From Anisakis pegreffii (Eukaryota; Nematoda; Chromadorea; Rhabditida; Anisakidae): 64,000 nucleotides of DNA. A model generated the notes under the pieces. The model did no database searches, was not told the origin of the DNA, and saw only the letters and a program-made list of their open reading frames with translations. The stretch is from contig JAPYMA010000096.1 in the NCBI GenBank assembly GCA_035041965.1, positions 1 to 64,000 of the forward strand. Direction: 5' to 3'. Of the stretch, positions 1-42,972 are shown in pieces. The translations under genes and the position numbers were made by a program. Within the stretch, counting starts at the first letter, position 1. Every line of letters starts with the position of its first letter.

Positions 1-31
1 ATTCTGGTGCCATTTTTCCGGTGTATTTCAG

Positions 32-3000
32 AATGCGGGTTATTGGGAGGTTAAGGGTCGGGGCCGATGGTCGTGTGGCTGAGTTTCTGGGCAAGACGGG
101 AGAGGGGGATCAGATGGAAGGGGAGACGATTTTAAAGATAGAGTTGGGGTGTTCACTCGGAGAGGGTACCACTGGAAAGGGAATTGGAACCGGTGGAAGT
201 GGATTCGGTGCTTTTGCTGGAGTTTAGAGATGGATGCTCACTTCGAATCAGTGAGTGTGTTGTTTGTTTTTTTTTTGAAGGAATACCCAACCTCTACCCC
301 CTTTTAAACAGTCTGTAGGGGAGTCGGATTCGAGTCACATGGGTAAAAGTACCCGGGAAGGTAGGAATGTACCTGAAATGGTTGAAAAATAACCTTTGAA
401 ATTGGGATATTTGGGAAAATTTGGGTGGAAAATTACCAAAAACGGGTTTTATAGGCGTTTGATTGGGTGTGAGACAGCAGAGATACGAGTGTTTGGCGAA
501 ATGTCCGCTGCAGGGAAATTTGGCAAAGTGTCCCCACCTGTCATTTTAGGATTAGCACTTTGATGTTAGTGTGTGTAGTGAGTGGTGATTGTTTGCTTGA
601 AGAGTTGGCGGGGAGTATTTTTTCATTTTTTTGGAAAAATTGTAATTTTTTATGAATTTTTTTGGAAAATATTATAAAAGTAATGTAGTATAGCAGTAAT
701 TAATTGTAATTAATTGTAAGTTAAAGGTCTGGAACAGCCGCCGGATTGTGTATTCGAAGCGTACCGATTCGAGTGGAGCAGCACGCAGCAATATCATTAT
801 ATGAAAGATGTGGTCAGGACGGACTGTGGAGGCTTCTGGTATGGTGGCGGTCAAGTGGCCAATCAGCAATGGCCGTTGGCACGAGATACGAACCCGTTTT
901 GTCAGTTCCTGAGTGCAGATACACTGAAGGTTTGAGTTGGCGTTTGACCTTTGACCTTTAGTGGTGACCTTCATGACGCTTGTGTGACCTTTGACCTTTG
1001 GCTGCTGCGTTTGACGTGTGGTTTCGTTTGTCTGTTTCGATTCCGAGTTTGAATTGGTGGTTTGATTGATTGGTTGGTTGGTTGGTTACAGGTGGCGCAG
1101 TCATCAATGGAACGGTACTGGTTGAATTCGAATAAATTGGCGTTATTCGTTGAGGACGATGTTGCGTTGTGGACAGAGCACTGGGATGGCAGACTGAGTC
1201 TGCAGGCACAGATCAGAGATTCGTGTTATGAGAATGTGATGGTGAGTTGGTTTTTTTGTGGTGGTGGTATTTGATTGGGTTTGGATTGGATATGGAGTGT
1301 ATTTGGGCATTTTTGGATTGATTTATTGACGTGGCAGAGGATAGAAGTGGGCAGGAAGAGTGAGAACCGAATGGCAGTTCGAAAATTTTAGGGTGGACAA
1401 ATGGCACCCAAACTGAGCTACACGATATTCACGTTGAGGAGTGGTGGAGACGTGACCACGTTGAAGGACTTTCATTTGGCAGTACATCGGAGCCTTTATT
1501 CCGGCGGTGTGAGTGTGCCGGATGAGGTGGTGATTCGACACCCGATTTGGACGACATGGGCAAGGTTTGGTCTCTTTTGGTTTCTGGTTTGGGTTCATTT
1601 GGATTCAGTTTCAAACTACGAACTACAAAGTGTAAACTACAACGTGGTGGTGGTGCAAACTACACATTATGGTGTTTGCTTTGCAGGTATAAGCAAGATA
1701 TAAGTGAAGATAAAGTGCTGCAATTCGCTGAGGAGATATTGGAGCATAAAGCAGCGATATCGCAGTTGGAACTGGATGACCGGTGGGAGAGGTCCTACGG
1801 CGATTTTGAGGTGAGTGGGCGAATAATATGACGCTGTTAGAGATAATAACGGCGATTTTGAGGTGAGTGGGCGAATAATATGACGCTGTTAGAGATAATA
1901 ACGGCGATTTTGAGGTGAGTGGGTGAATAATATGACGCTGTTAGAGATAATAACGGCGATTTTGAGGTGAGTGGGTGAATAATATGACGCTGTTAGAGAT
2001 AATAGAAAGTATTTTTTATTATTTTCAGTTTGATTCGACGAGATTCCCGAATGTGGAGAGGATGTGCGATGTGCTGAGGTCAAAGGGCATACGACTGTCA
2101 CTGTGGATTCATCCGTTTATCAATTTGGATAGTAATAATGCGAAGGATCGTGAGATTTGGGGATATATGGTGCAGACGGGATATAATAATGATAAGGAAC
2201 CAGCTCGGGTGGATTGGTGGAATAAGGCTGCATATGTGGTGGATTTCACGAATCCTGCAGCGGTATATTGGTTTAGAGAGCGATTGGATGCGTTGAAAAA
2301 GGTATTGTTTGGTGTGTGTATTTGGGTTTGGGATTGGTATTATTTATTGCTGTGATTAATTATTATTATTATTGTTATATATATATAATAATAAATAGTA
2401 TATATATAATAATAAATAATATATATTTATAATTAGTGAAAATAATTTGAAGTTGGGTGTGTACTCGTTTAAATTCGATGCCGGAGAGGTGACGTATCTA
2501 CCGAGGCGATTCCGGTTGTGGCGGAATGGGGCAAATATTAGCGATTATCAGCGATGTTATGCGGAAATGGCTGCGGAATTTGGGAATGCAGTAGAGGTGA
2601 GTGGTGAAAAATATTTTAGCGGCTTTTGGCGGCTTGCCAAAAGGTTGACCTGAAATGATTTTTTTTTGAATTTCAGGTTAGGGTGTGTTCGCGGACGCAG
2701 AATCTGCCGATATTAGTGAGGACATTGGATCGTCTTTCGACGTGGTTGGTGAGATTAAAAATATTTTTAGGATGGTAAAAATATTTTATAAATAATAAAT
2801 ATTTTGTATAATAATAAATATTATATATAATTATTATTGGTATTATTAAATATAATAAATAATAATAAATATAATTAAGGGATAACGCAGGATTGAGGAG
2901 TGTTCTGCCGATAGCACTGAATTATTCACTGCACGGATATTACTTTAATCTGCCGGATATCGTTGGTGGAAACTTTTATGGGGGGATTAAGGCGGATAAA

Positions 3001-4009
3001 GAGCTGTTTATAAGGTGGATGCAGGTGGGTGGTTATTTATTATTTATTATTGTTATTGTTATTATTTATTATTGTTTATTTATTATTATTTATTGTTATG
3101 TTATTATTTATTATTGTTTAGTTGGGGTGGTGAGTTCGATTCCGGGCTGGGTCTTAATTTTTGTGGAATTTTGGAGGATTTAGGATATAGGTTGTTATTG
3201 TTTTTGTTGTTTGTTTGTTTATTTTTTTGTTGTTTATTGTTGTTTATTATTATTTATTATTATTGTTATTTATTATTATTTGTTTTTCAGTTGAATCAGT
3301 TAATGGTGTGTATGCAAATGTCGAAAGCGCCGTGGGAGTATGATTTGGAAACTTGGCAAGTGTCCAAGAAAATAATGAGAGATAGAGAGATGATGATGGA
3401 TGACGTCATTTTAGAGGGGTGTAGGAGGAGTTGCGAGAGGGGGGAACCGGTGATATGGTTAGGGTTATTTATTGTTATTGTTTTTATTGTTTATTATTAT
3501 TTATTATTATTGTTATTATTTATTATTATTATTATTATTATTATTTCAGTCCAATGTGGTGGCTCTCGGATAGTGACGAGGCATTGATGTCGAGTGATCA
3601 GTTTGTGATAAACGATCGCGTAATAGTGGCTCCAGCTCTGGAGAAGGGAATGACATCGAGGGAAGTTTACTTACCCGCTGGGAAATGGAGACACGTGGCG
3701 GAAAATGCTCGGGAAGTTTGGAGGTTCATCTGGGAATAGAGTTTATGTGGGGCCGATACGGATTAGGATTGAAGTGAGTTTGAGTTGTTGATTTGTTATT
3801 GTTTTTGTTGTTGTTTGTTTGTTTATTTTTATTGTTTATTTGTTTACTTTTATTGTTTATTTGTTTATTTTTGTTGTTTATTTGTTTACTTTTGTTGTTT
3901 ATTTGTTTATTTTTATTGTTTACTTGTTTACTTATTGTTGTTTATAATTAATTTGCAGGTACCGCTGTTATCTTCAGTGCAGTATTTTGTGAAGGTGGAT
4001 GCGGACTGA
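32..4009 (+). CDS. GH31 glycosidase, MYORG-like (5' partial)
   Basis: Family GH31 retaining glycosidase; in animals this branch (myogenesis-regulating glycosidase) is a membrane or secretory-pathway enzyme. Exons by splice phase: 727-929, 1092-1241, 1392-1564, 1687-1810, 2029-2301, 2453-2596, 2677-2748, 2881-3024, 3291-3457, 3550-3773, 3959-4009. Upstream pieces 32-221 and 312-360 are phase-compatible but weak. Motifs in order: FWYGGGQVANQQWPL, PIWTTWARYK, SQLELDDRW, LWIHPF, YSFKFDAGE, LVRTLDR, PDIVGGNFYGG, VAPALEKG. The Asp of FDAGE (2477-2479, presumed nucleophile) and the Asp of RTLD (2728-2730, presumed acid/base) are 57 residues apart, the spacing I recall for human MYORG. Two anomalies: the exon at 2881 has no AG directly before it, and exon 3550-3773 needs a +1 shift near 3700-3715 to reach the conserved C-terminus. 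The gene may be active with sequence errors, or newly damaged. Family call is firm; substrate is unknown. Confidence 0.85.
1797..2004 (+). repeat. 52-bp tandem repeat copying an exon end and splice donor
   Basis: About four copies at a 52-bp period. The first copy contains the last codons of GH31 exon 1687-1810 (GDFE) and its donor; the others repeat the same GATTTTGAG/GTGAGTGGG junction at 1862, 1914 and 1966. Copies differ by single bases (gggc versus gggt). Confidence 0.9.
3118..3165 (+). repeat. tRNA B-box-like dispersed element, copy 1
   Basis: Contains GAGTTCGATTCCGG followed by GGGTC and AATTTTTG. A related string occurs at 6119-6160. It resembles the pol III internal B box (GGTTCGANTCC) of tRNA genes and tRNA-derived SINEs, but no cloverleaf can be folded. 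Confidence 0.35.
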
Positions 4010-4378
4010 GGTCAGAGTAGTGGCCAGTGTTTTAGTGTATTGTATTTTGTATTGTATTTGTTGTGTTTTGTAGTGCTCGGTTACGGTAGTTTTCGTTTCA
4101 GGACCCTTTTCTTGAGGAGATTAATTTTAGTGCGGTTTTGTATAGCAGCATTATAGTTGTGTGATTTATTTGTAAATTAAATAATTTGTTTTGAGATTTG
4201 TCGTTTGATGATAAATTATTTAGAATGTGTACGATGCACTGATTTATTTTATATTTATTATTGTATTTATTGTTGTTATTATTTATTATCATTGTTTTTT
4301 ATTATTTATTATTATTTATTATTATTGTTATTTATTATTATTTATTATTATTTATTATTATTTATTATTGTGTTTTAG
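4010..4378 (+). other. GH31 3' flank, no gene seen
   Basis: Follows the GH31 stop codon. T-rich, with no canonical AATAAA near the stop and no supported coding segment. The end merges into TTATT repeats. Confidence 0.5.
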
Positions 4379-4617
4379 GAGAGGGCAGGAGGGAGGTTCA
4401 GTTGAAGGCAGCGAAGGTACAGTGGACTATTGGACGAAACGATTAGGGATATCATATAGAGGTTATTTTATTTATTATTATTATTTATTATTGTTATTTA
4501 TTATTATTTATTATTATCTATTATTATTATATTATTTATTATTGTTATTATTATTATTGTTGTTATTTAGTATTGATATTGTATACTAAAGTTGAATTTA
4601 TCGATATAGATGCAAAA
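4379..4617 (+). CDS. Possible upstream exons of the next gene (4379-4461, 4571-4617)
   Basis: Two short open segments bounded by TTTTAG or ATTTAG and by GT donors: 4379-4461 (EGTVDYWTKRLGISYR) and 4571-4617 (LILYTKVEFIDIDAK). Phases agree with each other (1 nt plus 2 nt). They also agree with an in-frame start of exon 5435-5512 that uses an alternative acceptor (AATAG) just past an in-frame stop. They could be 5' exons of the Cys/His-rich gene, or noncoding. No initiating exon was found. Confidence 0.35.
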
Positions 4618-5464
4618 GTAAGGTTGTTATCTGTAGAAAAAGCGCTCATGGAACGAGTTGACCTCAGCTTTTGGTCTGGTTTTCTTTTCCCGCAGAAATT
4701 TGCGTGTTTTCTAGTTGATCTCTCTTCTTTTCTCTGCTTCTTTTCCCTTCATATCGTCTCTCTTTTGTTGTGCTCTCTTTCCGTCCTCCGTTTCTTTTCG
4801 TCTCTTCGTTTTGAGTTGTCTCTGATTTGGTAGTTTTTATATCCGATTGGCATTCGAAGCCGTCCGTATTTGGCGTGTGCTGTTTGTTTCTCTGACTCTC
4901 TCGGGCTAGACAATGTGAATGGGTTCTGTTTTGTTGGTCTTTATTGGTTTTGTTTGTTTCTTTGGCACCCTCCGCGATTGGCGTTATCTCTAGCGGGTCT
5001 GATGAGTTAGGTGATTTTTTGTGGTGAGCGATAGTATGTATTTGTTTGGTCAAAAGCCGTTGGATTGGCTGTTTGGTTAGCTGATTGGCACTTTTTTTTA
5101 TTATTTTATTATTTTTATTGTATATTATTATTATATATTTATTATTATATTGTATTATTATTATATATTATTAATATATATTTATTATTATATGATATTA
5201 TAGTTGTATAATAATATTATTATGTTGGTTAAATGTATAAAAAAGTGTGAGAGATGGCTTGTGAAGAGCATTTTGGGTTGATAGTGGGCATAGGTAGTGG
5301 GTTTGTGTGTGTTTATATGTGGTTATTGTTGTTATTTATTGTTATTTTTATTATTTATTATTGTTATTTATTATTATTATTGTAATTGTTATTGTGGTAA
5401 TTAATTAATTTTATAATTATTGTTTCAGGAATAGGTAATAGAAGAGGTGGGCGATTGGTGCAAG

Positions 5465-7018
5465 ATGGAAGAGCATTCGGATGAGATGGCGATGCAGGCG
5501 GCGGGATTAGAGGTGGGATTTTGTCTTTTTTGTCATGATTTTGTCATTTTGTCATTGTTTTGTCATATTTGACATAATTTGTTGTCATTTTTGTCATTTG
5601 TCATCAGGCGTTCTCCAAGCAATTCGATGTGACGCAAATTCTACGCGAGAATCCGGACGTATTGAATGTGCTGGCGAATTTTCCGTTTTTATTCAACAAT
5701 TTCAACGGTTTGGAGAAAATGACAGCCGAGGAGGCCGGGGAACGGAGCGCGAAGAGCAGTCCTGATATTAATTTCAGGTTGTGTTTTGTTAATTTTAGGT
5801 TGTTTTTGTGTGTAATAATATGTAATAATAAATAATAATTACAGCAGTTGCCAGGAAACACAATCAGACGAGTGGTTTGTGTGCTTCAAAGGGCCGAGCG
5901 TGCTAGCGACAGCTCTAGCAGCTTCATTGAATGTGATCTCGAGGGGACTTAATGAGGATGGCTATGAATAGTGGGTGCTTTTTATTGTTTATTATATTAT
6001 TGTTTTTATTGTTTATTATTATTATTTATTATTGTTAATATATAATAATATATAATAAATAATAATAATGTATAATAAATGATAATAGTAAAAGAAAGTG
6101 CGTAGTGTAAGTAGGTGTGGGGTTCGATTCCGGTCGAGGTCAATATTTTTGCGGGGTGTTTATTAAGAGGGCAGTTGGTTTTGTGGTAGTTTATATTAGT
6201 TATTATTATTTATTATTGTTATTATTGTATATTATTTATTATTATGTAATATTTATTATTATTAGTGTATATTAATAATAAATATTAATGTTATAGCTAT
6301 GATTGCCTGAATCGTCTCCGTTTCAAGTGTAGTTATCGAGTGAGGATGCGGAGATATGGAGAGAGTTTTGTGTGTGAGGAGTTTGGGGTGCATAGGCATA
6401 AGGCTGACACTCAGGTGCCGCTCTCGTCGACGGGGTTGCCGAGGTAGTTTTTGTTATTGTGTTGTTGTTTTTGTTGTTTATTGTTATTGTTGTTACCTGG
6501 ATTACCTGGATACAGGTAACAGGTAATCCAGGTAACAGTAATAACAGGTAAGATTATTGTTGTTGTTATGTTATTAATGATAATTATAGGTCAATGAGGG
6601 AGATAGTAGATGAGTCGTTTCGCTGTAATTGGTCGTATGTGGAGAGGCAGAAGAGATTGGGTGAGGAGGCGAAGAGACTCGGGCTGGAGATGGGGCAGAA
6701 GATGAATAGACAGGTTTATTTATTATTATTATTTATTATTATTTTTATTGTTATTTATTAATATGTATAATTTTAAATATAAATATTTAGATCGACAATC
6801 GCCTATCGTATCTGAGAAGGACGCGGAACATTCGGCAGATGCAGCAGCTGGAGGATAAACTGAACGTTTCAAAGGGATCGTCGTGTTCGAATTTGAATTT
6901 ATCGGCGAGTGATAACCAGGAGAACGTTATCAGTGACGTCACTGATAAGGGCGATGGCGAGGATGACGTCACTGATAAGAGCGCAACGAAATTGGACGAG
7001 AATTCAATGGAGGAATAG
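5465..7018 (+). CDS. Predicted nuclear protein with FLYWCH/WRKY-GCM1-like Cys/His segment
   Basis: Exons 5465-5512, 5608-5777, 5845-5970, 6297-6443, 6590-6713, 6791-7018, all phase-consistent; 280 aa from the ATG at 5465, which lies 36 nt after a TTTCAG acceptor with an in-frame stop between. The centre has DEWFVCFKGPSV followed by YDCLNRLRFKCSYRVRMRR, FVCEEFGVHRH: Cys, Cys, Cys and HxH spacing resembling FLYWCH/MULE-type DNA-binding zinc folds. After it comes a basic, probably helical segment (about residues 170-215) rich in Arg, Lys and Glu. The tail is acidic and repeats DVTDK. I do not recognise an orthologue; a DNA-binding role is inferred from the Cys/His pattern only. Codons are G/C-ending, unlike genes after 8 kb. 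Confidence 0.65.
6105..6160 (+). repeat. tRNA B-box-like dispersed element, copy 2
   Basis: GGGGTTCGATTCCGG then GAGGTC and ATTTTTG, matching the order of elements in the copy at 3118-3165. It lies in the intron between exons 5845-5970 and 6297-6443. Confidence 0.35.
6493..6535. repeat. 16-bp perfect inverted repeat in intron
   Basis: Arms TTACCTGGATTACCTG (6493-6508) and CAGGTAATCCAGGTAA (6520-6535) with an 11-nt loop that itself carries CAGGTAA. It lies within the intron between exons 6297-6443 and 6590-6713 and contains several GGTAA donor-like strings. Confidence 0.85.
6927..6948. repeat. Perfect 22-bp palindrome with CRE core inside coding exon
   Basis: TTATCAGTGAC/GTCACTGATAA is a perfect palindrome centred on TGACGTCA and flanked by GATA-type TTATC/GATAA halves. 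It encodes part of the repeated acidic tail. A partial second copy lies at 6964-6979. Confidence 0.9.
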
Positions 7019-7165
7019 TGGTTTTTTTGAGCCGGTGGTTCCTTATCACTGAGGTATGTGATTTGTACAGTGGAGTGATTAGACGTTATCAGTGACTGAT
7101 AAGGAGGTTATCAGTTGGGTATTGGGGGAGTGATAAGGGTTGCGGTAGTGATAAGGAGTGATAAG
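7019..7165 (+). promoter_or_regulatory. 3' flank cluster of GATAAG/CTTATC motifs
   Basis: Just after the stop codon there are at least six GATAAG or TTATC motifs (7042, 7085-7102, 7108, 7131, 7150, 7158), several as AGTGATAAGG. The motif continues the palindromic repeat of the last exon. GATA-factor binding or RNA structure is inference only. Confidence 0.4.
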
Positions 7166-7873
7166 GCTCGATATTGTTGTGTATTATTGTTATTATTATT
7201 GTTTTTGTTGTGTTTTAAATAATTCAGTAATTGAAATCTCATGAATTTAGCTGCCATTTCCAGCAATCTCATTATTTGATCATATCTCACTTGGTTGTAT
7301 GTCTTCTCTGCGCGCTATTTTCTCTTCTATTTCCATTGTCTTTCCATTTTCCTTTCAATCTCTGGCTGATCGTTCCGACATCATAGATTTTGATATGTAT
7401 TATTGTTATTGTTTATTATTATTTATTATTATTATTTATTATTGTTATTTATTATTATTTATTATAATATTTATTATTATTATTAATATGACGTGTATAA
7501 GCGATGGTTTGCCCATTATAGCAATACTTTGGTTAAAATTTGCTCATTGGTGAATGTTTTGGGTTATTATTATTATTATTATTTATTATTATTTATTATT
7601 ATTTATTGTTATTGTTTATTATTATTATTATTGTTATTTATTATTATTATTGTTGTTGTATTTATTATTTATTATTATTATTATTTATTATTATTATTAT
7701 TGTTATTATTATTATTATTATTGTTGTTGTATTTATTATTATTATTTGATGGACTATTGCCATGTTCCGTGTACCTCATGAGTGTATTGAATCAGTTGCC
7801 TTTGGAAATAGCATTTTGGGTTATTGAATTGTTATTTTTATTATTTTTATTATTTATTTATTATTATTATTTA

Positions 7874-7933
<60 letters not shown>

Positions 7934-9402
7934 GGATGTGTTGAATAAAAGGTTTTCGTATGATTAGGTGTAAGATTGTATAGGGTCAGGACTGAAAGAG
8001 CGTGGAATTGAATTGGTGATGAAATTCATTGTAATCCATTATTATAACGACTGTAGCAACTGTGAACTGATGCGACAAGGATCTCTCAATCCAATGAATG
8101 TCGATATTGCTTGGAGATGACATGATTTTTGAAGAAGCATTCGTGGAACGACAAAAAATATCATTGAAATGATGCGAATAAACACTTGAATCACTGCAGC
8201 AGATATACGCTGCAGTGAAACATCAGCCTGCCACGAAATTATCATCTGACTTTCGGTGCATATGATCACACTAACGCGGTAGTTGAACAGCATCGTATTC
8301 ATACGCTTAAATAATTGCGTCTTATAAAAATAGTGGATTGACGTCACTGATGTGAGCGTATTCGATCACTTAAATCCTAATCAATACTTGAGTCAGCCGA
8401 TGGCAAATGTTATGATGTATTCGTTGTTGTTATATGTTCAATGATTTACTTTACAAAGCGCTCAAAGTATACAACATTTAAGATCTTCAGTGAAGTGTGT
8501 ATGCGAATGAATAATCAACGAACGCATTGAATAGTTCTTGATAATCGCATAAAAAGTTATGCAACAATAGTGTGCATTTACCACCGTATGTTTCTGTTCT
8601 GATTTATTTGGTATGGCAACATGTCTCTTGCATGATATGCTAGTGTCAATAAACGAGGAACAATTGTAAAATACGAAAAAGATTTACTATCCCAGATCAA
8701 ATGATGAGTGAGAGCACAAAACGCTCAGTGATGAAAATGAATGAAAATTTTGCACTAACAATAAGAACAAAATATTTTATGATTGCATTAAGTTAGTTGG
8801 ATGTGCATTATATAGCCTCTTTTTTTGTGAAACAATCACTCAGATATGTTTAAACGAAACTCAATTGTTTTGGTTTCGATAATTACGTTCAGTGTATTGA
8901 TTATTACTTTCTTCAAATGGCACCGTTCAGCGAAACTTGCAATGCAATGGAGTGCATTAAGTGTAGACCGATGAAAAATTTATTGCAAAAAAAAACCCAT
9001 ACAAATAATGATTGCAACTAGAGTCGGACACTGAAAATGCGAAAGAAGCTGATGGTTCGGTAGACTGCGGAATGGAAATTTGACGGCCAACATCCACTCA
9101 CTTCGTCGACGACAACTGAGAGGGTGTTCAATTGCTGGCCACCGAAAAACATTTCGATCTTGCACTCCAGCGCAGCACTTATTAGAGCGTTTCAGTGAAG
9201 GAAGGATAAATATGAAACGGCAACAACACATATTACAATTACTTTCGGCATAAGGCAATAAGTTTTTTGAATGTATGAGAGGATTCTAAAGGAAAAGTCA
9301 TTCAACTGGTTCAAAAAGCAATTCAGTAAACTGCAATCAGATCCCGGATTCTTTGCCAGAAATGCATCGATTACGCACCAATCTGAACATTAAAATATTG
9401 CG
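7166..9402. other. Intergenic, no supported gene
   Basis: TTATT repeats to about 7,960, then ordinary AT-rich DNA. Minus-strand ORFs at 8042-8347 and 8980-9258 show no domain or clear exon borders. A TTTATT at 9403-9408 could be the poly(A) signal (AATAAA on the minus strand) of the cassette gene. Confidence 0.6.
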
Positions 9403-9684
9403 TTTATTTCTCGTCACCATCGTCTTCAATACAATGATTTTGAGAATTTCTACCAGCCAAATTGTTCACAGCTACGATCCTAACAATAAAAACCAAAAAT
9501 GAAGTTACTAGGAAGGAGCTCGCGAGGACACAAAAAACATTTTAAATATTATCCTAAAAACAATATCCTTAAAACTGAAATAAACCTAAACTTAAATATC
9601 CTTTTCCTTATAATTCGGTCATTATTATATCCTGTGCTTCATACGAGTTCCGTTGCCCGTAGATGTCCTAAGATGAACAGTGGC

Positions 9685-12600
9685 TCATCGGGGAAGTAAT
9701 TTGGAAATGTGATTAGTTCCCCACTCTAGAAGTGCCTTGGTGAGATTAGATCGCAATGAATAACCTACATATCTGAAAGCGTCCAAGTTTCTAAGTCCCC
9801 CCTGTGAACAACAAAGCCAAATTAGTCAAAATTGATCGAAATATGCCAAAAGGACTATTTTAATATCCTTTGGCAATACGGGAACATGATGATGCTACGC
9901 AATTTCTTCATTGCAAAGCTGTCAGGGTTGGTGGAATATCCAACGAAAAGTGACATAACTTTTTGCTTATTCAGGATCATCTGAATGAGACAAATTGGCA
10001 TTTAATTACTCACATCTCGGAAAGCTTCTTCATCCTTTCCATTGTTCACTTCCCGTTTCGTCGTTCTGAGCAAGTAGTTGTTTAGGTTGTCCTGTGAACA
10101 ACAAATCCAAATTAGTCAACCTCGTGCGGAATTGGCCAAAAGGACTATTTCAACATCCTTTAGCAATGCGAATAAGTGACGACGCTACGCAATTTCTTCA
10201 TTGTTTATCCGGGTTTCGACTAAGGCGCTTTCACTGGCTGGTTTATTGGTGTTGTCTCTACTTCACACTGCTTGCAAACCGCTTTCTCCTGTTCTAAGTT
10301 CTAACTCTTAAAAGGACCCCGTTCTATTCTTTTGTCACGCACCTATATTCCGCAACATTTATCTTTTGCTTTACAGTTTAACCTGCCTCGTACTTCTAAA
10401 CTACACCTCATATTTAGAAGCTTTCTGTCTGTTTTACTGCAGAAGCTACCAGAATTGATGGAATCTTCAGCGAAAAGTATCATCACTTTTCGTCTATTGA
10501 AGAGCACCTTAATGAGACCAAATCGCATGGAATTACTTTCATCTCTGAACGCTTCCGCATCTGGTTTGTTGAGTCTGATGAAGCGGTTGATATGGCCGTT
10601 CATTGAGCAACAAATCAAAATTTAAAAATAAAAAAACTTGTGCGAAACTGACGGAAATGAGTGCTTAGATATTCTTAGATTATGCGGAGCCGAGAAAGTG
10701 TTATGCAATTCCTTGATTGCTTTTTTAGCTAGAATGGTGCTATCAATTTCCATTTATTGAAGAGCACCTTAATGAGACCATATCACATTGAATTACTTAC
10801 ATCTCTGAACGCGTCTCCATTGCTGGCATCTCGTTTGTTCAGTCGGAAGAGGGAATCGGTGGGACTGACCTGTAAACAGGAACTACAAAGTAGAAAAAGT
10901 AGTGCAAAACTGGCCGAAAGAAGTGCTTCAAAGAAGTATATCATATTCCAGCTGTTTTAAAGCAGCTTCAGTTGCTTACATCTCTGAACGCTTCCGCATC
11001 CCGTTTGGTGAGTCTGATACGGGGGTCGATACGGCCGTTCTGTAAACAACAAATCAAATTTTAAGAAAACTTGTGCGAAACTAACGGAAATGAGTGCTTA
11101 GATATCCGTAGACAATGCGGAGCTGAGAAAATCTTACACAACTCCTTGATCGCTTTTCCGGACTTGATCTAAGATGTTTTTATGGAATCGTTCTTTGGTG
11201 CTATCTCTACTCCACACTTTGGAAAACTGCTTATTTCTTTTCTGTACCCCAGATTTTTCGAAGGAATTCTGTTCTCCTCTTCTGTCACGCCCTGATATTC
11301 CGCAACAAACCCCTTCTGTTCTGTTTATGTAAGTTTATCCTGTCTCATAACTCTCTTCTGCGCCTCAAATTTTGGTCTTAACTCAAAAGTTATCATCACT
11401 CATCGTTCACGAAAGAGGACATTAAGCTTTATGTTCTTTTCTGCCGCAAAGCTGTCAAGGTTGGTGGAATATCCAACGAAAAGTGACATAACTTTTTGCT
11501 TATTCAGGATCCTCTTAATGAGACAAATTGGCATTTAATTACTCACATCTCGGAAAGCTTCTTCATCCTTTCCATTGTTCACTTCCCGTTTCGAGATTCT
11601 GAGCAAGTGGTTGGTTACGTGGTCCTGTGAACAACAAATCCAAATTAGTCAACCTCGTGCGAAATTGGCCAAATGGAGCATAATATTCTATGGTTCCTTC
11701 ACGGACTAGTTTATTGGTGCTCTCTCTACTTCACTCTGTTAACTTCATTCTGCTTTATAGTCTAACTCTTTCAAAGCGATTCTGTTCTACTATTCTGTCG
11801 CTCCTGACTATTCGGCAAGTTTTCTCTTCTGTTCAACAGTTCAAGCGGTCTCGCTCTGTCCTCACAAATGCAGCACACATTCGGAAGCTTTCTTTTCTAT
11901 TGTGTTGCCATAACTGCTAAAGTTGGAGGAACCATAAAATTTAGTTAGAATGGTGCTATCAATTTCCATTTATTGAAGAGCACCTTAATGAGACCATATC
12001 ACATTGAATTACTTACATCTCTGAACGCGTCTCCATTGCTGGCATCTCGTTTGTTCAGTCGGAACAGATGTGCATTGCTGGCATCTCGTTTGTTCAGTCG
12101 GAAGAGGGAATCGGTGGGACTGACCTGTAAACAGGAACTACAAAGTAGAAAAAGTAGTGCAAAACTGGCCGAAAGAAGTGCTTCAAAGAAGTATATCATA
12201 TTCCAGCTGTTTTAAAGCAGCTTCAGTTGCTTACATCTCTGAACGCTTCCGCATCCCGTTTGGTGAGTCTGATACGGGGGTCGATACGGCCGTTCTGTAA
12301 ACAACAAATCAAATTTTAAGAAAACTTGTGCGAAACTAACGGAAATGAGTGCTTAGATATCCGTAGACAATGCGGAGCTGAGAAAATCTTACACAACTCC
12401 TTGATCGCTTTTCCGGACTTGATCTAAGATGTTTTTATGGAATCGTTCTTTGGTGCTATCTCTACTCCACACTTTGGAAAACTGCTTATTTCTTTTCTGT
12501 ACCCCAGATTTTTCGAAGGAATTCTGTTCTCCTCTTCTGTCACGCCCTGATATTCCGCAACAAACCCCTTCTGTTCTGTTTATGTAAGTTTATCCTGTCT

Positions 12601-15600
12601 CATAACTCTCTTCTGCGCCTCAAATTTTGGTCTTAACTCAAAAGTTATCATCACTCATCCTTCACGAAAGAGAACATTAATGAGACGAAATTGCAACGAA
12701 GTACTTACATCTCTGAATTGCTCGGCAGATCGCTTCATGACTCTCGTCAACATGTCGAAAGTATCGTCATTTGCCTGCAATGAACTCTTCGTCTTAATGA
12801 ATATAATCGAAATGAATGCATTTGGAATGCATGACCGCAAGTGTGCTCAAAAACTGACTGAATCTTTTTTATTCTGTTCTATTGTTTGACCTGTCTCGAT
12901 CTGTCTCCCTACTGCAACCCAGATTTGGAAGCTTTATGTTCTTTTCTGCCGCAAAGCTGTCAAGGTTGGTGGAATATCCAACGAAAAGTGACATAACTTT
13001 TTGCTTATTCAGGATCCTCTTAATGAGACAAATTGGCATTTAATTACTCACATCTCGGAAAGCTTCTTCATCCTTTCCATTGTTCACTTCCCGTTTCGAG
13101 ATTCTGAGCAAGTGGTTGGTTACGTGGTCCTGTGAACAACAAATCCAAATTAGTCAACCTCGTGCGAAATTGGCCAAATGGAGCATAATATTCTATGGTT
13201 CCTTCACGGACTAGTTTATTGGTGCTCTCTCTACTTCACTCTGTTAACTTCATTCTGCTTTATAGTCTAACTCTTTCAAAGCGATTCTGTTCTACTATTC
13301 TGTCGCTCCTGACTATTCGGCAAGTTTTCTCTTCTGTTCAACAGTTCAAGCGGTCTCGCTCTGTCCTCACAAATGCAGCACACATTCGGAAGCTTTCTTT
13401 TCTATTGTGTTGCCATAACTGCTAAAGTTGGAGGAACCATAAAATTTAGTTAGAATGGTGCTATCAATTTCCATTTATTGAAAAGCACCTTAATGAGACC
13501 ATATCACATTGAATTACTTACATCTCTGAACGCGTCTCCATTGCTGGCATCTCGTTTGTTCAGTCGGAAGAGGGAATCGGTGGGACTGACCTGTAAACAG
13601 GAACTACAAAGTAGAAAAAGTAGTGCAAAACTGGCCGAAAGAAGTGCTTCAAAGAAGTATATCATATTCCAGCTGTTTTAAAGCAGCTTCAGTTGCTTAC
13701 ATCTCTGAACGCTTCCGCATCCCGTTTGGTGAGTCTGATACGGGGGTCGATACGGCCGTTCTGTAAACAACAAATCAAATTTTAAGAAAACTTGTGCGAA
13801 ACTAACGGAAATGAGTGCTTAGATATCCGTAGACAATGCGGAGCTGAGAAAATCTTACACAACTCCTTGATCGCTTTTCCGGACTTGATCTAAGATGTTT
13901 TTATGGAATCGTTCTTTGGTGCTATCTCTACTCCACACTTTGGAAAACTGCTTATTTCTTTTCTGTACCCCAGATTTTTTGAAGGAATTCTGTTCTCCTT
14001 TTCTGTCACGCCCTGATGTTCCGCAACAAACCCCTTCTGTTCTGTTTATGTAAGTTTATCCTGTCTCATAACTCTCTTCAGCGCCTCAAATTTTGGTCTT
14101 AACTCAAAAGTTATCATCACTCATCCTTCACGAAAGAGAACATTAATGAGACGAAATTGCAACGAAGTACTTACATCTCTGAATTGCTCGGCAGATCGCT
14201 TCATGACTCTCGTCAACATGTCGAAAGTATCGTCATTTGCCTGCAATGAACTCTTCGTCTTAATGAATATAATCGAAATGAATGCATTTGGAATGCATGA
14301 CCGCAAGTGTGCTCAAAAACTGACTGAATCTTTTTTATTCTGTTCTATTGTTTGACCTGTCTCGATCTGTCTCCCTACTGCAACCCAGATTTGGAAGCTT
14401 TATGTTCTTTTCTGCCGCAAAGCTGTCAAGGTTGGTGGAATATCCAACGAAAAGTGACATAACTTTTTGCTTATTCAGGATCCTCTTAATGAGACAAATT
14501 GGCATTTAATTACTCACATCTCGGAAAGCTTCTTCATCCTTTCCATTGTTCACTTCCCGTTTCGAGATTCTGAGCAAGTGGTTGGTTACGTGGTCCTGTG
14601 AACAACAAATCCAAATTAGTCAACCTCGTGCGAAATTGGCCAAATGGAGCATAATATTCTATGGTTCCTTCACGGACTAGTTTATTGGTGCTCTCTCTAC
14701 TTCACTCTGTTAACTTCATTCTGCTTTATAGTCTAACTCTTTCAAAGCGATTCTGTTCTACTATTCTGTCGCTCCTGACTATTCGGCAAGTTTTCTCTTC
14801 TGTTCAACAGTTCAAGCGGTCTCGCTCTGTCCTCACAAATGCAGCACACATTCGGAAGCTTTCTTTTCTATTGTGTTGCCATAACTGCTAAAGTTGGAGG
14901 AACCATAAAATTTAGTTAGAATGGTGCTATCAATTTCCATTTATTGAAAAGCACCTTAATGAGACCATATCACATTGAATTACTTACATCTCTGAACGCG
15001 TCTCCATTGCTGGCATCTCGTTTGTTCAGTCGGAAGAGGGAATCGGTGGGACTGACCTGTAAACAGGAACTACAAAGTAGAAAAAGTAGTGCAAAACTGG
15101 CCGAAAGAAGTGCTTCAAAGAAGTATATCATATTCCAGCTGTTTTAAAGCAGCTTCAGTTGCTTACATCTCTGAACGCTTCCGCATCCCGTTTGGTGAGT
15201 CTGATACGGGGGTCGATACGGCCGTTCTGTAAACAACAAATCAAATTTTAAGAAAACTTGTGCGAAACTAACGGAAATGAGTGCTTAGATATCCGTAGAC
15301 AATGCGGAGCTGAGAAAATCTTACACAACTCCTTGATCGCTTTTCCGGACTTGATCTAAGATGTTTTTATGGAATCGTTCTTTGGTGCTATCTCTACTCC
15401 ACACTTTGGAAAACTGCTTATTTCTTTTCTGTACCCCAGATTTTTTGAAGGAATTCTGTTCTCCTTTTCTGTCACGCCCTGATGTTCCGCAACAAACCCC
15501 TTCTGTTCTGTTTATGTAAGTTTATCCTGTCTCATAACTCTCTTCTGCGCCTCAAATTTTGGTCTTAACTCAAAACTTATCATCACTCATCCTTCACGAA

Positions 15601-15968
15601 AGAGAACATTAATGAGACGAAATTGCAACGAAGTACTTACATCTCTGAATTGCTCGGCAGATCGCTTCATGACTCTCGTCAACATGTCGAAAGTATCGTC
15701 ATTTGCCTGCAATGAACTCTTCGTCTTAATGAATATAATCGAAATGAATGCTTTTGGAATGCATGACCGCAAGTGTGCTCAAAAACTGACTGAATTCCAT
15801 GCTATCGCATTCGCTAAATTTGAAAAGAGTCTGATTTTGAACGGATTTCTTGAGTCGAAGATTGAATGCTCTTAAAAAATGCAGTAATCAGTCGAGTGAA
15901 TATAACTTTTAAAAAATTACCCTGATCGCTATCACTGCTACGGCGAAGATGCAAATGAACTTGATCAT
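9685..15968 (-). CDS. Secreted precursor built from repeated KR-containing micro-exon cassettes
   Basis: Unrecognised gene. Exon 1 (15921-15968) encodes the signal peptide MIKFICIFAVAVIAIR, 8 nt after a TTTTCAG acceptor. Cassettes follow, each phase 0-0. Type a (SAEQFRD end): 15641-15706, 14175-14240, 12709-12774. Type b (NGRIDPRIRLTKR start): 15167-15226, 13701-13760, 12235-12294, 10980-11039. Type c (VSPTDSLFRLNKR): 14988-15056, 13522-13590, 12017-12124, 10801-10869. Type d (DHVTNHLLRISKR, or DNLNNYLLRTTKR in the last): 14518-14595, 13052-13129, 11547-11624, 10014-10091. The terminal exon is 9685-9801, starting GGLRNLDAFRY and ending in TGA. All cassettes have good acceptors (TTCACAG, TTTACAG, TTGCAG) and GTAAGT, GTAAGC or GTGAGT donors. 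If every exon is used the product is 409 aa with 16 Lys-Arg sites. The common plan is variable part, R-[LIV]-x-KR, acidic/Ala part, FRD. The signal peptide and dibasic sites suggest a processed peptide precursor; a secreted micro-exon effector is the alternative. Confidence 0.75.
10541..10600 (-). pseudogene. Decayed b-type cassette exon
   Basis: Still translates as a cassette (NGHINRFIRLNK then PDAEAFRD). However, KR has become KP, the donor GTAAGT reads GAAAGT, and the acceptor CAG reads ATG. It is therefore probably skipped. It sits between the last c exon and the last d exon. Confidence 0.75.
11430..15801. repeat. 1466-bp tandem array (three copies)
   Basis: Three nearly identical units of 1466 bp (one is 1505 bp because of a 39-bp internal insertion), each holding the four cassette exons a, b, c, d of the minus-strand gene. 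Equivalent points: 12655, 14121 and 15587. Only a handful of substitutions separate the two upper copies (for example ttcagcgcc versus ttctgcgcc). An older, divergent part-copy occupies 9.7-11.4 kb. Confidence 0.95.
12057..12095 (-). repeat. 39-bp in-frame duplication inside a cassette exon
   Basis: The c-type exon 12017-12124 is 108 nt instead of 69. A 39-bp segment containing FRLNKRDASN is duplicated in frame, adding 13 residues and one KR site. The other three c exons lack it. Confidence 0.85.
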
Positions 15969-15976
15969 TGTGGTCT

Positions 15977-18900
15977 CTGAAAATACTTGTCAAGTTTAGA
16001 AGGATTAGGCCTTCGAACAGAATGAGTTTTCTGAGAGCGTACAGATTCCAAATGGAACTGAGGCACCATAAAGCAGTGAGGTCCTCGAAACTCCCGAAAA
16101 TTTACTCTTTTTGGTTGCTAGATAACTCATCTTACCTCCTTCAGTGAGTTTTAACAAAGGCTGTCTCATCGTTAATAATCATTACTTTTATATTGCTCTC
16201 GGGTTTGTTTACTGTCAGCTTGCCTTGTCATTCAACTGACGATGAGTATTCGAAAGCGCAGCTGGTCATATTCGATCGTACAGTTTTGCGTAATTACTGC
16301 TAAAATTCGAATGAAGCGCGGCTGCAAAAAGAAAACCGATTGTTATTGTTATTATTTAGCTGTGTATGAAATTTGCAAAAATAACATTATAACTGCTTTA
16401 TCAGTTGTGAACGGTTTCCACATATCAAACAAACGAACATTACCGTCCGCACCGAGCAACTCATAACCTGTTGGTAATTTCATAACGAATTTCATGGATA
16501 GAACTGTAATTGATGTTGAATTTGAATTATAGCACTGGAATTTAAGGATAATGATGTTCACCTTCTTTGTGGTTAAAGATTGGAAATGTTTTTAGAATTG
16601 TTCAGCTCTTTGAGACTCCTCCCGATGTTATTTTTCTTCAGCAATGTCATGCAAAATTCTTATCAATAGCTGTCAGTTCTCAAACGACTGTAAATTCATA
16701 GCTTGTCCTTGTGATCTGTCGCATCGAATGCGCAACTGTCGGTTAGTTACCGGACTGAAATGGGATTTCTTTCCCAAAAGTGATGACTTTCACAGATGCC
16801 GTTGTTCAGTGTTGCCTTTCAGTATCAAAAATCTCGATAATAATGCTCAATCTGCAAACAATTCCACTAAAAAACAATTGCTGCATGAGCAAAGCTGCAC
16901 TGGATAACTCAAATCAGCTGTGTAAGCATGATAGAATTGAGAATTCAAAATATTTGTCGATCACTTCAAAACTTCTAGTTGTATGAACAGAGTTGTTTTG
17001 ATGACAGTTCCATGGTAAACAAATCTAAAAATAGAATATGATACGCCATTTTTTGATACCATCAAAATATTCTGCAAACACTAAAAATTTATTCTGTTGA
17101 AGCAGCATGTTGAGTGATTACGTCTCAGTGAGCAAAGTAACCAAAGAAAGCAGATAGCTTCGTGAAACGTTCCTGTCCATGGAGTAACGTGCTTGTGAAA
17201 TATTCGAGTTGGGTCTGTGGCCACCGAAAACAATCAGCAAAGATTGATTGGTCGCTGGTCTTGAAAATTGTTAGAACAACCGAATTGTACGTTTATGGAT
17301 ACTCGTTGAGAAGAAGCACATTTTACGTTTGTTAGGTGCTTGCCATTGCTTCGAGACCGCCTAAGACTGAATTTCGGTGTCACCGATCGAAAGCGAAAAT
17401 AACCAATTTCAATAACCATCGATGACAATCGATGTTATCGGTGGTCACCCGAGAAATTCGGTCCGTTCCTAGCTGCATTTGATTTCAGAATATCTAGAGA
17501 CACATTTGTTTCTTAGTAAAATCGAAGTGCTGAATTAAAGATGTTGTTTTCTTGCTGCTGAGATTTTGCTTCAGTTAGATATCTGCATTTTTCTCGCGCA
17601 GCAACTGACGACTTCGTTGATAATGTCAAACTAAAACTCTCAGTTCCTCGCAACAATTGTGATGTAGAGATGATTGTATTAATGACTGGTGATGTTTGAG
17701 AAAGAAGATGTCGGAATTTTGGCGTAAAAATTCCGAATCCATTTTTGGAGGTTTCGAAATTCAGTACTGCGACCGACTTTTTAAGTTACCCTTATTTGTC
17801 ACATTATGTCGTCATGCACTCGTGCTAAAGCTATTGGGCTTTATCGGTCTGTCATCACATAAAAGGATAAATTTTTTCTAATCAATCTTTCATCGCATCA
17901 AAATCATTTTTGCGATCAAATCGATAATGACGATAAAAAGTGCGAGTTTCTAGTTTGAGTAATCTTTGAATCGTAAGATTTCTTTCCTCGTGATGAATTC
18001 AAATTATCGCGATGATCGCAAATATCAGACGATTTTTATCAAATCACTGAAATCACCAATGTGTGAATTGTTGATTTCAGTGATTTGATAAAAATCATCT
18101 GATAAAAGTCTATGAAAATTAATTCATTGCCATCAAGATAACCTCAATTTTATGTTTTTCGATCGTTCAGATTTTAATTCGATTTCAGTTAGAACTTGAA
18201 GTAATGGAATATGTTTGAGGAAATATGGATGAACTCATTTTTTGGCAATCATAGTTGCTGACAGATACTTTTCAGATGTGCCAGTGGTGTATTGAGTGGT
18301 TCACCGCCTTTACGGTTTCGATATCAGATCTCGTAATGATCACAAATTCGGAGAGTTTTGAAAGTGCACATTTGAACTTGATTTATTAGATGAGTTCGCG
18401 AGAAGGAGGCGGAACATTACGAGGTTTGATGTGCGTTCAGCATATCACCGAAAAAGCATATCCATAGCAGTTAGCGCAAAAGTATCACGTAGACTTCCGC
18501 TGAATCAGCGTAGAACAGTAAGCTTCGTCAATTCAAAGTTTGGATTTTGTGTCATCTCTTAACAATCAGAAATTACTTATGATACATCACAGATATAAAG
18601 GGACAGAAACAGTTCGTTCAACCGGCAATTCGATCATGAAACGTGCTATTACTGATAGTGATCTGTTAATGTTTTTCATTTCGAATAAATCATGAACAGC
18701 TACGTTTTTTATTTCGCGTTGTCTTTACAGAACAAAACCGATTAGATGAAGAGGTATGGCGAAACGATTAATTATGTCTGACTCGACGATTTATTAAATG
18801 ATAAAGAAATCAACTATGTTCATTTAAAAATCTATATTTTGGCAAGAAACATTCTATAGAAATTCATTAAATCAATTTTGAATTTCACACGTTCTCATTT

Positions 18901-23100: not shown

Positions 23101-26100
23101 AGCTCGTAATTCATATGGATCCGAGTAATTTATTATCATGTCCCATTCAAATTTTTGAATGATATGAAACAGTTTGAGGGTAGTGAAGTGTGCTTTATCG
23201 ATTCTAAAGAAGATTTTTTTTGCTGAAGAAATATTGTACAGTTTAATATTCACTGCAAAAAAAGTCGTCAGTATGTATGGATTGAAGATGGGCATAGTGG
23301 CACACGAAACATTACATGCACTCGGATTATGGCACGAGCAATCGAGGAGCGATCGTGATCAATACATTACTATCAATTACGCTAATATTTATCCGGTTAG
23401 TCTGATCCCCTTCTGCCAATAGCGTTCATCAATCGATTTCTATGGGCTGGCGACCGGAGTTTACAATATAAAGTTTAGTATGCACATAGATGATAGCAGA
23501 TTTCAAAGGGGAGAATATAGCAAGTACTACACTGGGTCTATAGCGAGCTTCTAAACAGTACAGACAATCTACATCGTTTAGAAGGCTCATTGTGATGTTT
23601 CGGCATCATTCATTGTCCAGAAACTGAACAAGTTTGGGGTGGATTACACATGAATTTCGGGAACACATCTTCTAATGCAGGGTTTGTCAAGCGGAGGTGC
23701 GAGATAAGATTTCATTTTTGATACAAGAAAGTCTACAAGGACGGATTTTAACGCATAAATGTCTGTAAAGTAGGTGGGGATGGACTTCAACGGATAAAGT
23801 TTTGGAAGTGTTTATCTACACTATAGACACTCACTATAGTGAGTGGAAGAGAGATACAGAGTGGATGTTGTGAAGAGTGCGAAGATACTTTAACTGTTGT
23901 TGCATGAGCATATCTTAAAATTTTCTGGGCGGTGCGAGGGGAAAAGGTTGAGAAGCACTACTCTAAAGCATTTCCAAGTTTGAGTAAACATGCAGCATCA
24001 GAAACATTTCTCCTTCAAATGAGCATTCATTCGTATTATGATATGCTCATTTGAATTTCATGGCTTGCAAGGTAATTTCGAGAAGAGAAGCTCGTGGAAT
24101 ACGGACAATATGGGTGAGCCATACGATCTCGGTTCGGTGATGCATTATGGCTCGAAAGCGTTTGCTATCGATTATTCAAGGTACTTCATTATCAGATCTA
24201 ATCTTGATAATTACGAAGAAACCAGCCAGCAGTGTGCCTAGCATAGCGATGAGTAATACTTTCTTGATTTAGCGCAGTGTAGCATCTAGCATTACTAATG
24301 ATTAACTGAATAGATAATTTACAGAGATACCATTAGAACGATTGATCGAAATTTCCAACGCACAATTGGTCAGCGAGGTGGAATGTCGTTTAAGGACATC
24401 AAAATGATCAACAAGAGATATTGTCAATGTACACTGCATCATTTATTTGTACACAAACATTTTTCACATCGCAACTCACGTATGGCACATGAAACAGCAA
24501 TGAATTATTTTGGTTCAGGATTCCCAACCGATTCACCTAGTCGAGTCCATATGAAATCGATGAAGAAACAAATAAGAAATCCAAATATTGAATGATATTC
24601 GCTTCAAATTATCGAAACGATCGAGAAGTCAGGAGATTGACGATCAGAATCAATTTTTCAGACGTGTGCAGCCCTTTACCATGTCAGAATGGCGGCTATA
24701 CGAATCCAAACAAATGTAGTGAATGCAAATGTCCAAAAGGATACGGTGGAAGATACTGTGAAAGAATCGAGACAAGTGGTAGAGTAATTCAAGAAATATT
24801 GCTCTTAAGAAGATGATGAGTTCGATCATGAATTCAGTATCTAAAGCAGATATTATTATTCACTGCATCCAGTTGCACGATAAAAGCATGTAACGAATTT
24901 ATTGTGTGTCAGGAAATTGCAATATATTTTAGTACCCTCAACCTGTGGTGGTGAGCTGATAGCTGATCGAACATTCAAACAAATCGCAAGTCCACCGATG
25001 AGCAGCAATATTCGTTGCATATGGAGAATCACGGTTAGACGTCTTCATTGTTACACGCATGCAGCGTTGTTATTTTTTCTTCTTTGTGAGAACTTCATAT
25101 TGAAATAGTATTAAAATCGCCACAATGCTGCCTGCATGTGATAAACTTTATCTGCCTGACTACATTCTTCCATGCAAATAGCTAAAAATTTCCCCTGTAA
25201 AATTATTGCAAGAGTCATTGAACTGATCGCAGCTGGTTTCGTTGCTTTCCAGTATGATCACTGAAGCGATCATGTCACTGTTAGTTAGATAACTTGTTAA
25301 AATCGCAAGTAGGTGAGCAGTGTTCAAATGGAAACAACTTAAAATTTCTAATTTGACTATCGAATTGCTGTGTTGCAGTCGCCTGCGCAAGTACTGGTTG
25401 TTGTGGATCATTTGAATCTGCCATGTGAAGAAACTTGTACGAATTATGTGGAACTGAAATATGCAAATGAGAAAACTTCTACAGGTCCGTTCTTGCGATA
25501 TCTTTTTCATAAACGCGATAAGGTTTATGAAAGGACTTAATCCAACGATCTATGAGACATTATTCAACAATACTCTCTCTACTGAATCACATTAGTTCTT
25601 CAGTTGAGAAAACCAATTTGCTTCACAATTTCACATTATTCTGTTCATCGTGAATTGAATTACCAAAAACCTTTTGATCGTTTCCAGGTCCACGATTATG
25701 TTGTATGGCACCAACAGCGTCGTTTATTAGTGAAGGAAACGAGTTCATTGTTATCTTTAATACGGCTAATGTTGATACGCGCTATCAAGGCATGAAGATT
25801 CGCTATCAAGCATGTGCGTTACAGTATCGTCGCTTTCGTTCCTCCACTTAAGTCATTAACTTGTGAGACTAATCAGCTGCTAATGAATGAGAAATACTCT
25901 CAACTGTGATCATCGTACCGATTATAAGCGACATAATCGGCTTCGTTGACTTTTTTCTCAATCAAATAATATGATTCTTGTCATGAAAAACTGCTGAACC
26001 TGGTGAACCATTCGAGAGATCGAATGAAAATTAGGACCATGGAACTCGCTCAAAATATGGAACAAATTGCAATTGCATCATGAATCAGATGGAAAGTAAT

Positions 26101-42790: not shown

Positions 42791-42972
42791 CTGAAGATTC
42801 TGAGAGCTATCGAAATTGCGATTGGTAAACGGGCAATCGGAAACGGGCAATTATTTGGTCATTTCCATTCATAAAAGGTTTCTGATGAGAAATTAGTTGG
42901 ATCGTACTTAAGGGAAAATAGATTTTGTTGTTTGCTTTGATTCATGATAGGTTTAACAGTCACACTCTTCAG

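Follow-up and report, generated by a model that had tools for sequence, protein, structure and literature searches.

A tandem array of symmetric cassette exons in the nematode Anisakis pegreffii probably encodes a multi-copy secreted-peptide precursor

We analyzed a window of 64,000 nucleotides (nt) of the Anisakis pegreffii genome (assembly GCA_035041965.1, contig JAPYMA010000096.1, positions 1 to 64,000 of the forward strand), which carries a gene of repeated small exons, here called the cassette gene, on its minus strand at 15968–9685. A signal-peptide-like exon of 48 nt is followed by 15 cassette exons, all in phase 0–0, and by a terminal exon, in the order signal-ABCD-ABCD-ABC'D-BC-(decayed B)-D'-end. 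The first coding exon (15921–15968, MIKFICIFAVAVIAIR, donor GTAATT) codes for a hydrophobic start of 16 residues, its core judged by eye on the sequence. Four cassette types (A, B, C, and D) plus D4 were distinguished, measuring 66 nt (A), 60 nt (B), 69 nt (C, 108 nt once), and 78 nt (D). All five exon lengths are divisible by 3, and all 15 cassettes are bounded by an AG acceptor and a GTAAG or GTGAG donor. Type A (ANDDTFDMLTRVMKRSAEQFRD) lies at 15641–15706 (A1), 14175–14240 (A2), and 12709–12774 (A3); type B (NGRIDPRIRLTKRDAEAFRD) at 15167–15226 (B1), 13701–13760 (B2), 12235–12294 (B3), and 10980–11039 (B4); type C (VSPTDSLFRLNKRDASNGDAFRD) at 14988–15056 (C1), 13522–13590 (C2), and 10801–10869 (C4), with the 108-nt variant C3 (C') at 12017–12124, where a 39-nt in-frame insertion adds a second KR; and type D (DHVTNHLLRISKREVNNGKDEEAFRD) at 14518–14595 (D1), 13052–13129 (D2), and 11547–11624 (D3), with D4 (D', 78 nt) at 10014–10091. 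The terminal exon spans 9685–9801 (117 nt including the TGA stop), and a possible poly(A) signal (AATAAA, 9403–9408) lies 277 nt past the stop. Eight nt before the ATG, a weak TTTTCAG (15977–15983) may mark either an SL1 trans-splice acceptor or a cis acceptor. With 25 copies in the window against an expected 21.61, this heptamer shows no enrichment, and trans-splicing there is only possible. From the sequence, we infer that the cassette gene is transcribed and spliced. The signal-peptide-like exon, the 15 phase 0–0 cassettes of 60, 66, 69, 78, or 108 nt, and the terminal exon of the original prediction were all located with their putative splice sites, and its layout of a secreted precursor with symmetric cassettes is supported.

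Each cassette follows a common layout: 8–10 variable residues, R-x-x-KR, then 4–10 residues that are mostly acidic, A, or N, and a closing FRD. Joined, the exons give a model of 409 residues with 16 KR and 15 FRD (one KR per cassette, two in C3). Its sole Cys is in the signal exon, and no G precedes any KR. Six residues (R, K, R, F, R, and D) are invariant among the four types and D4, and four of their six codons vary synonymously. The core had been described as R-[LIV]-x-KR; D4 reads R-T-T-KR, and the motif is accordingly widened to R-[LIVT]-x-KR.

The array consists largely of one four-exon block of 1466 bp, repeated in tandem and nearly unchanged. Two full blocks (A-B-C-D with introns) occupy 12775–15706, and a third, slightly changed block comes next. 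Within types, exons are identical (A1–A3, B1–B4, C1/C2/C4, and D1–D3), and corresponding introns show 0–4 differences over 110–414 bases. The predicted count of 15 cassettes was correct; owing to the tandem repetition of the block they are not 15 independent events, and a decayed B-type unit had been missed. Types A–D resemble one another in both exon and intron sequence, as older duplicates of a single exon-intron unit would. Decay is concentrated toward the 3' end. The B-type unit at 10600–10541 (60 nt, minus strand, not counted as an exon) has lost its acceptor, reads KP for KR, and carries GA in place of the donor GT, with its frame still open. The terminal exon is itself a decayed cassette: it lacks KR, retains a D-like acceptor side, and has FRD|GT turned into FRYVG (...DAFRYVG...), after which translation continues through the former intron to the stop. 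A GTAGGT remains at the FRYVG site, where a further splice may occur. Both decayed units have thus lost KR along with splice sites, and the array seems to grow in its middle and erode at its end.

The cassette structure exceeds what chance would produce. We searched both strands of the whole window with the regular expression AG|...R..KR...FRD|GT and repeated the search on 500 dinucleotide shuffles. Fifteen modules were found on the minus strand of 9601–16100, and none of the 500 shuffles contained even one, so chance open frames were rejected as an explanation. The plus strand of 9601–16100 contained no module, nor did either strand of the remaining window, and a slightly looser expression found none in the 30 kb of contig beyond it. 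A plus-strand gene was likewise rejected, no cassette lying on that strand; repeated plus-strand open frames of 112–130 aa scored too low to be listed by the codon model, as did the short cassettes. Over the six type pairs among A–D, the proportions of nonsynonymous (pN) and synonymous (pS) differences were 0 and 0.33 for FRD, 0.23 and 0.60 for the R-x-x-KR core, and 0.56 and 0.63 for the eight residues that precede that core. These numbers are small, and since FRD and KR were picked for being constant, they show only that recent duplication does not by itself explain the constancy. A codon model trained on 12 kinase exons (1182 codons; 11 of 12 above zero in leave-one-out, the remaining one at −14.7) scored A+B+C+D at +5.7 in frame 0 and at −27.1 and −23.7 in the other frames, a frame 0 score equaled by 24 of 5000 random open sets. 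Scored exon by exon, A, B, and C lie above zero.

These data also bear on the reading that the locus is a non-coding or decaying tandem repeat whose open frames arose by chance, or that the block was over-expanded in the assembly. The decayed unit, the degenerate last exon, the identical blocks, the lack of any homologue found, and the absence of a synonymous codon signal would all suit such a reading. We nevertheless regard it as highly improbable, given that none of the 500 shuffles yielded a module, that 15 open frames come with splice sites, and that amino acids are constant between types despite synonymous change.

The array was found at only one place in the genome. Searches of 122,655,733 bases in 1740 contigs (match counts, here and below, are lower bounds) returned 16 matches for the cassettes, 10 for the whole block, and one for the first exon with its upstream DNA, all at this locus. 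A dispersed repeat family was therefore rejected, as block and first-exon DNA were found on this contig only. The homology search of the joined cassettes, proposed with the original prediction as a check, was run against ~5.8 billion proteins and returned no relative: for the 409-residue model 8000 candidates were scored, none at E ≤ 10, and for a 107-residue signal-plus-ABCD piece there was one candidate, again none at E ≤ 10. A neighboring exon at ~63.1 kb retrieved Toxocara canis and Ascaris suum (75% identity each) and Gnathostoma (70%) over about half of the query, and the collection holds one protein encoded by another gene of this window. The empty result is informative because the same collection returned both the neighbor's nematode orthologues and this window-encoded protein, with the caveat that a word-based search is weak for short, fast-changing peptides and that products of 188–224 residues fall between its two length limits. 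Against Pfam, the 409-residue model gave 14 matches at E ≤ 10 (best 1.6e-5, DUF746), none over the curated cut-off; we take these as chance matches on repetitive, charged sequence. The 107-residue piece gave no match in NCBIfam (a bacterial and archaeal library) and six in the Protein Data Bank (PDB), all at E 1.9, and transfer RNA and Rfam scans of the window returned 0 matches each. In agreement with the original prediction, no known family was found for the gene in the protein collection, Pfam, PDB, or NCBIfam, and the cassette gene probably represents a new orphan family of secreted-peptide precursors.

We consider it probable that the cassette gene encodes a multi-copy precursor of secreted peptides, cleaved at KR and amplified by recent tandem duplication of the 1466-bp block. 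Beyond the observed anatomy, reading frame, repeats, and conservation pattern, we infer secretion, KR cleavage, and crossing-over. The first exon would supply the signal peptide, a kex2-like convertase in the secretory pathway would cut after KR, and a carboxypeptidase would trim the KR. Processing would release 15 internal peptides of 11–26 residues and seven kinds, flanked by an initial piece of 13 residues and a final one of 51. By copy, the predicted peptides are SAEQFRDNGRIDPRIRLT (three), DAEAFRDVSPTDSLFRLN (four), DASNGDAFRDDHVTNHLLRIS (three), EVNNGKDEEAFRDANDDTFDMLTRVM (two), and three single ones. Monoisotopic masses calculated for the seven kinds are 2143.125, 2051.991, 2352.121, 3031.329, 2813.417, 2384.099, and 1256.626 Da. 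Six of the seven kinds would take the form (S/D/E)(A/V)...FRD...R-x-x, with FRD internal and R-x-x at the end; because the exon ends at FRD, these six would be half one exon and half the next. No C-terminal amides are expected, as no G precedes a KR. Copy number would rise by unequal crossing-over of the four-exon, 1466-bp block, and a precursor of repeated peptides would yield much peptide per message.

Several points weigh against the precursor reading. The exon copies are recent and identical and so provide no independent support. In the codon model, synonymous codon choice carries no information, since 2268 of 5000 random sets did equally well, and the positive score therefore reflects amino-acid composition; the model puts D, D4, and the terminal exon below zero and the first exon near zero. 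No homologue was found among the ~5.8 billion proteins, and hence no cross-species conservation. Finally, KR could be uncut, in which case the product would be an intact repetitive secreted protein, perhaps helical, serving as a coat, matrix, or antigen. By inspection, L-x-R-L-x-KR...acidic...FRD could form an amphipathic repeat, and an omics review (PMC7397233) describes other Anisakis allergens whose repeats are short or in tandem (Ani s 7, 11, and 12). We judge an uncut protein very unlikely, since most of the variation in repeat length (20–26 residues) falls between KR and FRD, as befits spacers more than a regular repeat fold, and since KR was lost in both decayed units.

The type D cassettes provide a hint, and only a hint, of fast change in the variable half. 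Between D3 and D4, 7 of 33 bases differ in the variable part, all seven substitutions falling within the first 11 codons and affecting six codons, every one of which changes its residue, compared with 0 of 45 in the KR-FRD part. Flanking introns differ at 3 of 100 bases downstream and 1 of 44 just upstream, rising to 33 of 100 when the upstream stretch is widened. The excess in the variable part accordingly has a Fisher p of 0.0008 against the 44 upstream bases, 0.002 against the downstream intron alone, and 0.63 against 100 upstream bases. B4 and the decayed B unit show no such excess (7/33 in the variable part, 16/100 upstream, 38/98 downstream). The signal remains a hint because the contrast vanishes with the wider upstream stretch and the decayed B unit lacks it.

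This pattern matters for the alternative that the locus generates variation in the manner of a micro-exon gene (MEG), with symmetric cassettes left out or shuffled during splicing and many secreted isoforms arising from one locus, a scheme compatible with KR cleavage. As the junctions sit inside the predicted peptides, such splicing would allow every N-half to be combined with every C-half. All cassettes are phase 0–0, each skippable without a frame shift; the predicted peptides span exon junctions; and the D3/D4 differences are concentrated in the variable part (7/33, against 0/45 in KR-FRD). However, the copies are near-identical and skipping would bring little new sequence, the D3/D4 excess depends on the border chosen (p 0.0008 to 0.63), and B4 and the decayed B unit show no variable-part excess. 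We therefore think MEG-like variation quite unlikely. The fuller version, a single-locus combinatorial peptide generator in a nematode that parasitizes animals, we would call a long shot. In it, interchangeable N-halves (closing with FRD) would be joined to C-halves that vary more (closing with R-x-x) according to exon order and skipping, giving a library of secreted peptides. Host action and exon mixing are each compatible with the precursor reading, and our estimates for the alternatives are not mutually exclusive.

Within the precursor reading, the peptides could act on the host, as an immunomodulator or effector in the excretory-secretory products. The cassette gene is an orphan in a parasite, which speaks for such a role; orphan status also fits an internal lineage-specific peptide. 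We hold host action to be possible but unlikely, and lean slightly toward signaling inside the worm.

The original prediction knew of no family with this plan; that no known gene has it is not supported. By analogy, the plan has a vertebrate parallel, and the nearest known one is that of the Xenopus tandem peptide-exon genes. The magainin and caerulein genes of Xenopus laevis skin are described as having tandem-repeated peptide exons with quasi-zero divergence (PMC3731216). Like them, the cassette gene combines tandem near-identical peptide-coding exons (here predicted) with basic cleavage motifs in one precursor gene (PMC3731216). The Xenopus genes differ in being vertebrate and in showing no sequence relation that we found, and the cassette gene in having junctions inside its predicted peptides and four exon types in fixed ABCD order.

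The likeness to schistosome MEGs that had been noted is superficial, one of shape. Schistosome micro-exons measure at most ~36 nt, whereas the cassette exons, at 60–108 nt, are not of micro size. MEGs, found in flatworms, form families, and here a single cassette locus was found. What is shared is a coding sequence of mainly symmetric small exons (15 of 15 cassettes in phase 0–0). MEGs are described as consisting for the most part of a signal peptide and numerous small symmetric exons, with products that appear secreted, and the available text of that account leaves dibasic sites unmentioned (PMC4015677).

Among nematode systems, neuropeptide-like proteins (NLPs) have a signal peptide and dibasic-flanked repeated peptides, as predicted for the cassette gene; the cassette gene differs in lacking an amidation site and in having one cassette exon per repeat. 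No NLP or FLP family match was obtained in the protein collection or over the cut-off in Pfam, and FRD does not appear as a string in the main text of an NLP survey (PMC8764417). The NPA/ABA-1 polyprotein allergens, described as tandem polyproteins of nematodes that are cleaved at basic sites (PMC3079579), resemble the cassette gene in their tandem organization and basic cut sites, which are predicted in our case. Its units are unlike theirs in spanning only 20–26 residues with an intron each, and no NPA unit was matched (no Pfam family over the cut-off, no homologue in the ~5.8 billion proteins). HYP effectors of potato cyst nematodes are secreted proteins with repeats, described as variable in number, with motifs of 5–17 residues in a repeat region that forms one open reading frame (PMC4177990); they lack dibasic cassette exons, whereas each repeat of the cassette gene is a separate predicted exon. 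The Anisakis omics review, in its available text, covers repeat-bearing allergens of other layouts (PMC7397233), and that of a pharynx transcriptome paper contains nothing on the cassette gene (PMC5763927). An open-access literature search found no tandem peptide-exon precursor in a nematode. The cassette gene may thus be the first described, with the proviso that a negative literature search is no proof of absence.

If the precursor reading is true, the locus adds a new secreted peptide family to nematodes. Gene prediction seems to have missed it, because the protein collection does not list it yet holds another gene of the window. Exon-straddling peptides would render a combinatorial role of splicing directly testable, and a repeated secreted product in a zoonotic, allergen-rich parasite would be a candidate marker.

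The surroundings agree with the predicted nematode origin, which is supported by SL1 leaders, repeats of 5S rRNA and SL1 genes, and the nematode orthologues of the neighboring exon. The genome contains 205 SL1 leaders at ≤1 mismatch (0 in the reversed control), and on contig C14 (1–2070) 5S rRNA and SL1 genes alternate in the same orientation in 552-bp tandem repeats. Of the six ANIS5 matches in the genome, one corresponds to the SXP/RAL-2 family protein PDB 2mar_A (62/63 residues), which we take to be Ani s 5 of Anisakis simplex and which makes an Anisakis genome very probable; two others were tested and gave no such 2mar_A or SXP/RAL-2 match (a single weak match in one case).

Several secreted-protein types are encoded on the same contig, with astacin, PAN, C-type lectin, and leishmanolysin domain matches on the plus strand of the window at 24059–24175, 42922–43440, 44943–45143, and 52689–53786. 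Just upstream of the cassette gene, a minus-strand open stretch at 16391–16474 (PTGYELLGADGNVRLFDMWKPFTTDKAV) has a coding-like score and no Pfam match, and is perhaps an exon of another gene. Positions 1–8000 of the window have a GC skew of 0.36–0.50 in four 2-kb steps and T over A, unlike the rest of the window, and contain many TTA/TTG-rich tandem arrays and GH31 glycosidase pieces; the contig may end here in foreign or chimeric sequence. Among the 41 GH31 matches in the genome, only the one in 1–8000 and one on contig C576 cover profile positions 110–140. Adjoining the GH31 piece, a 52-nt unit occurs four times at 1797–2004; the copies are 99% alike, and each has a GTGAGT donor-like site.

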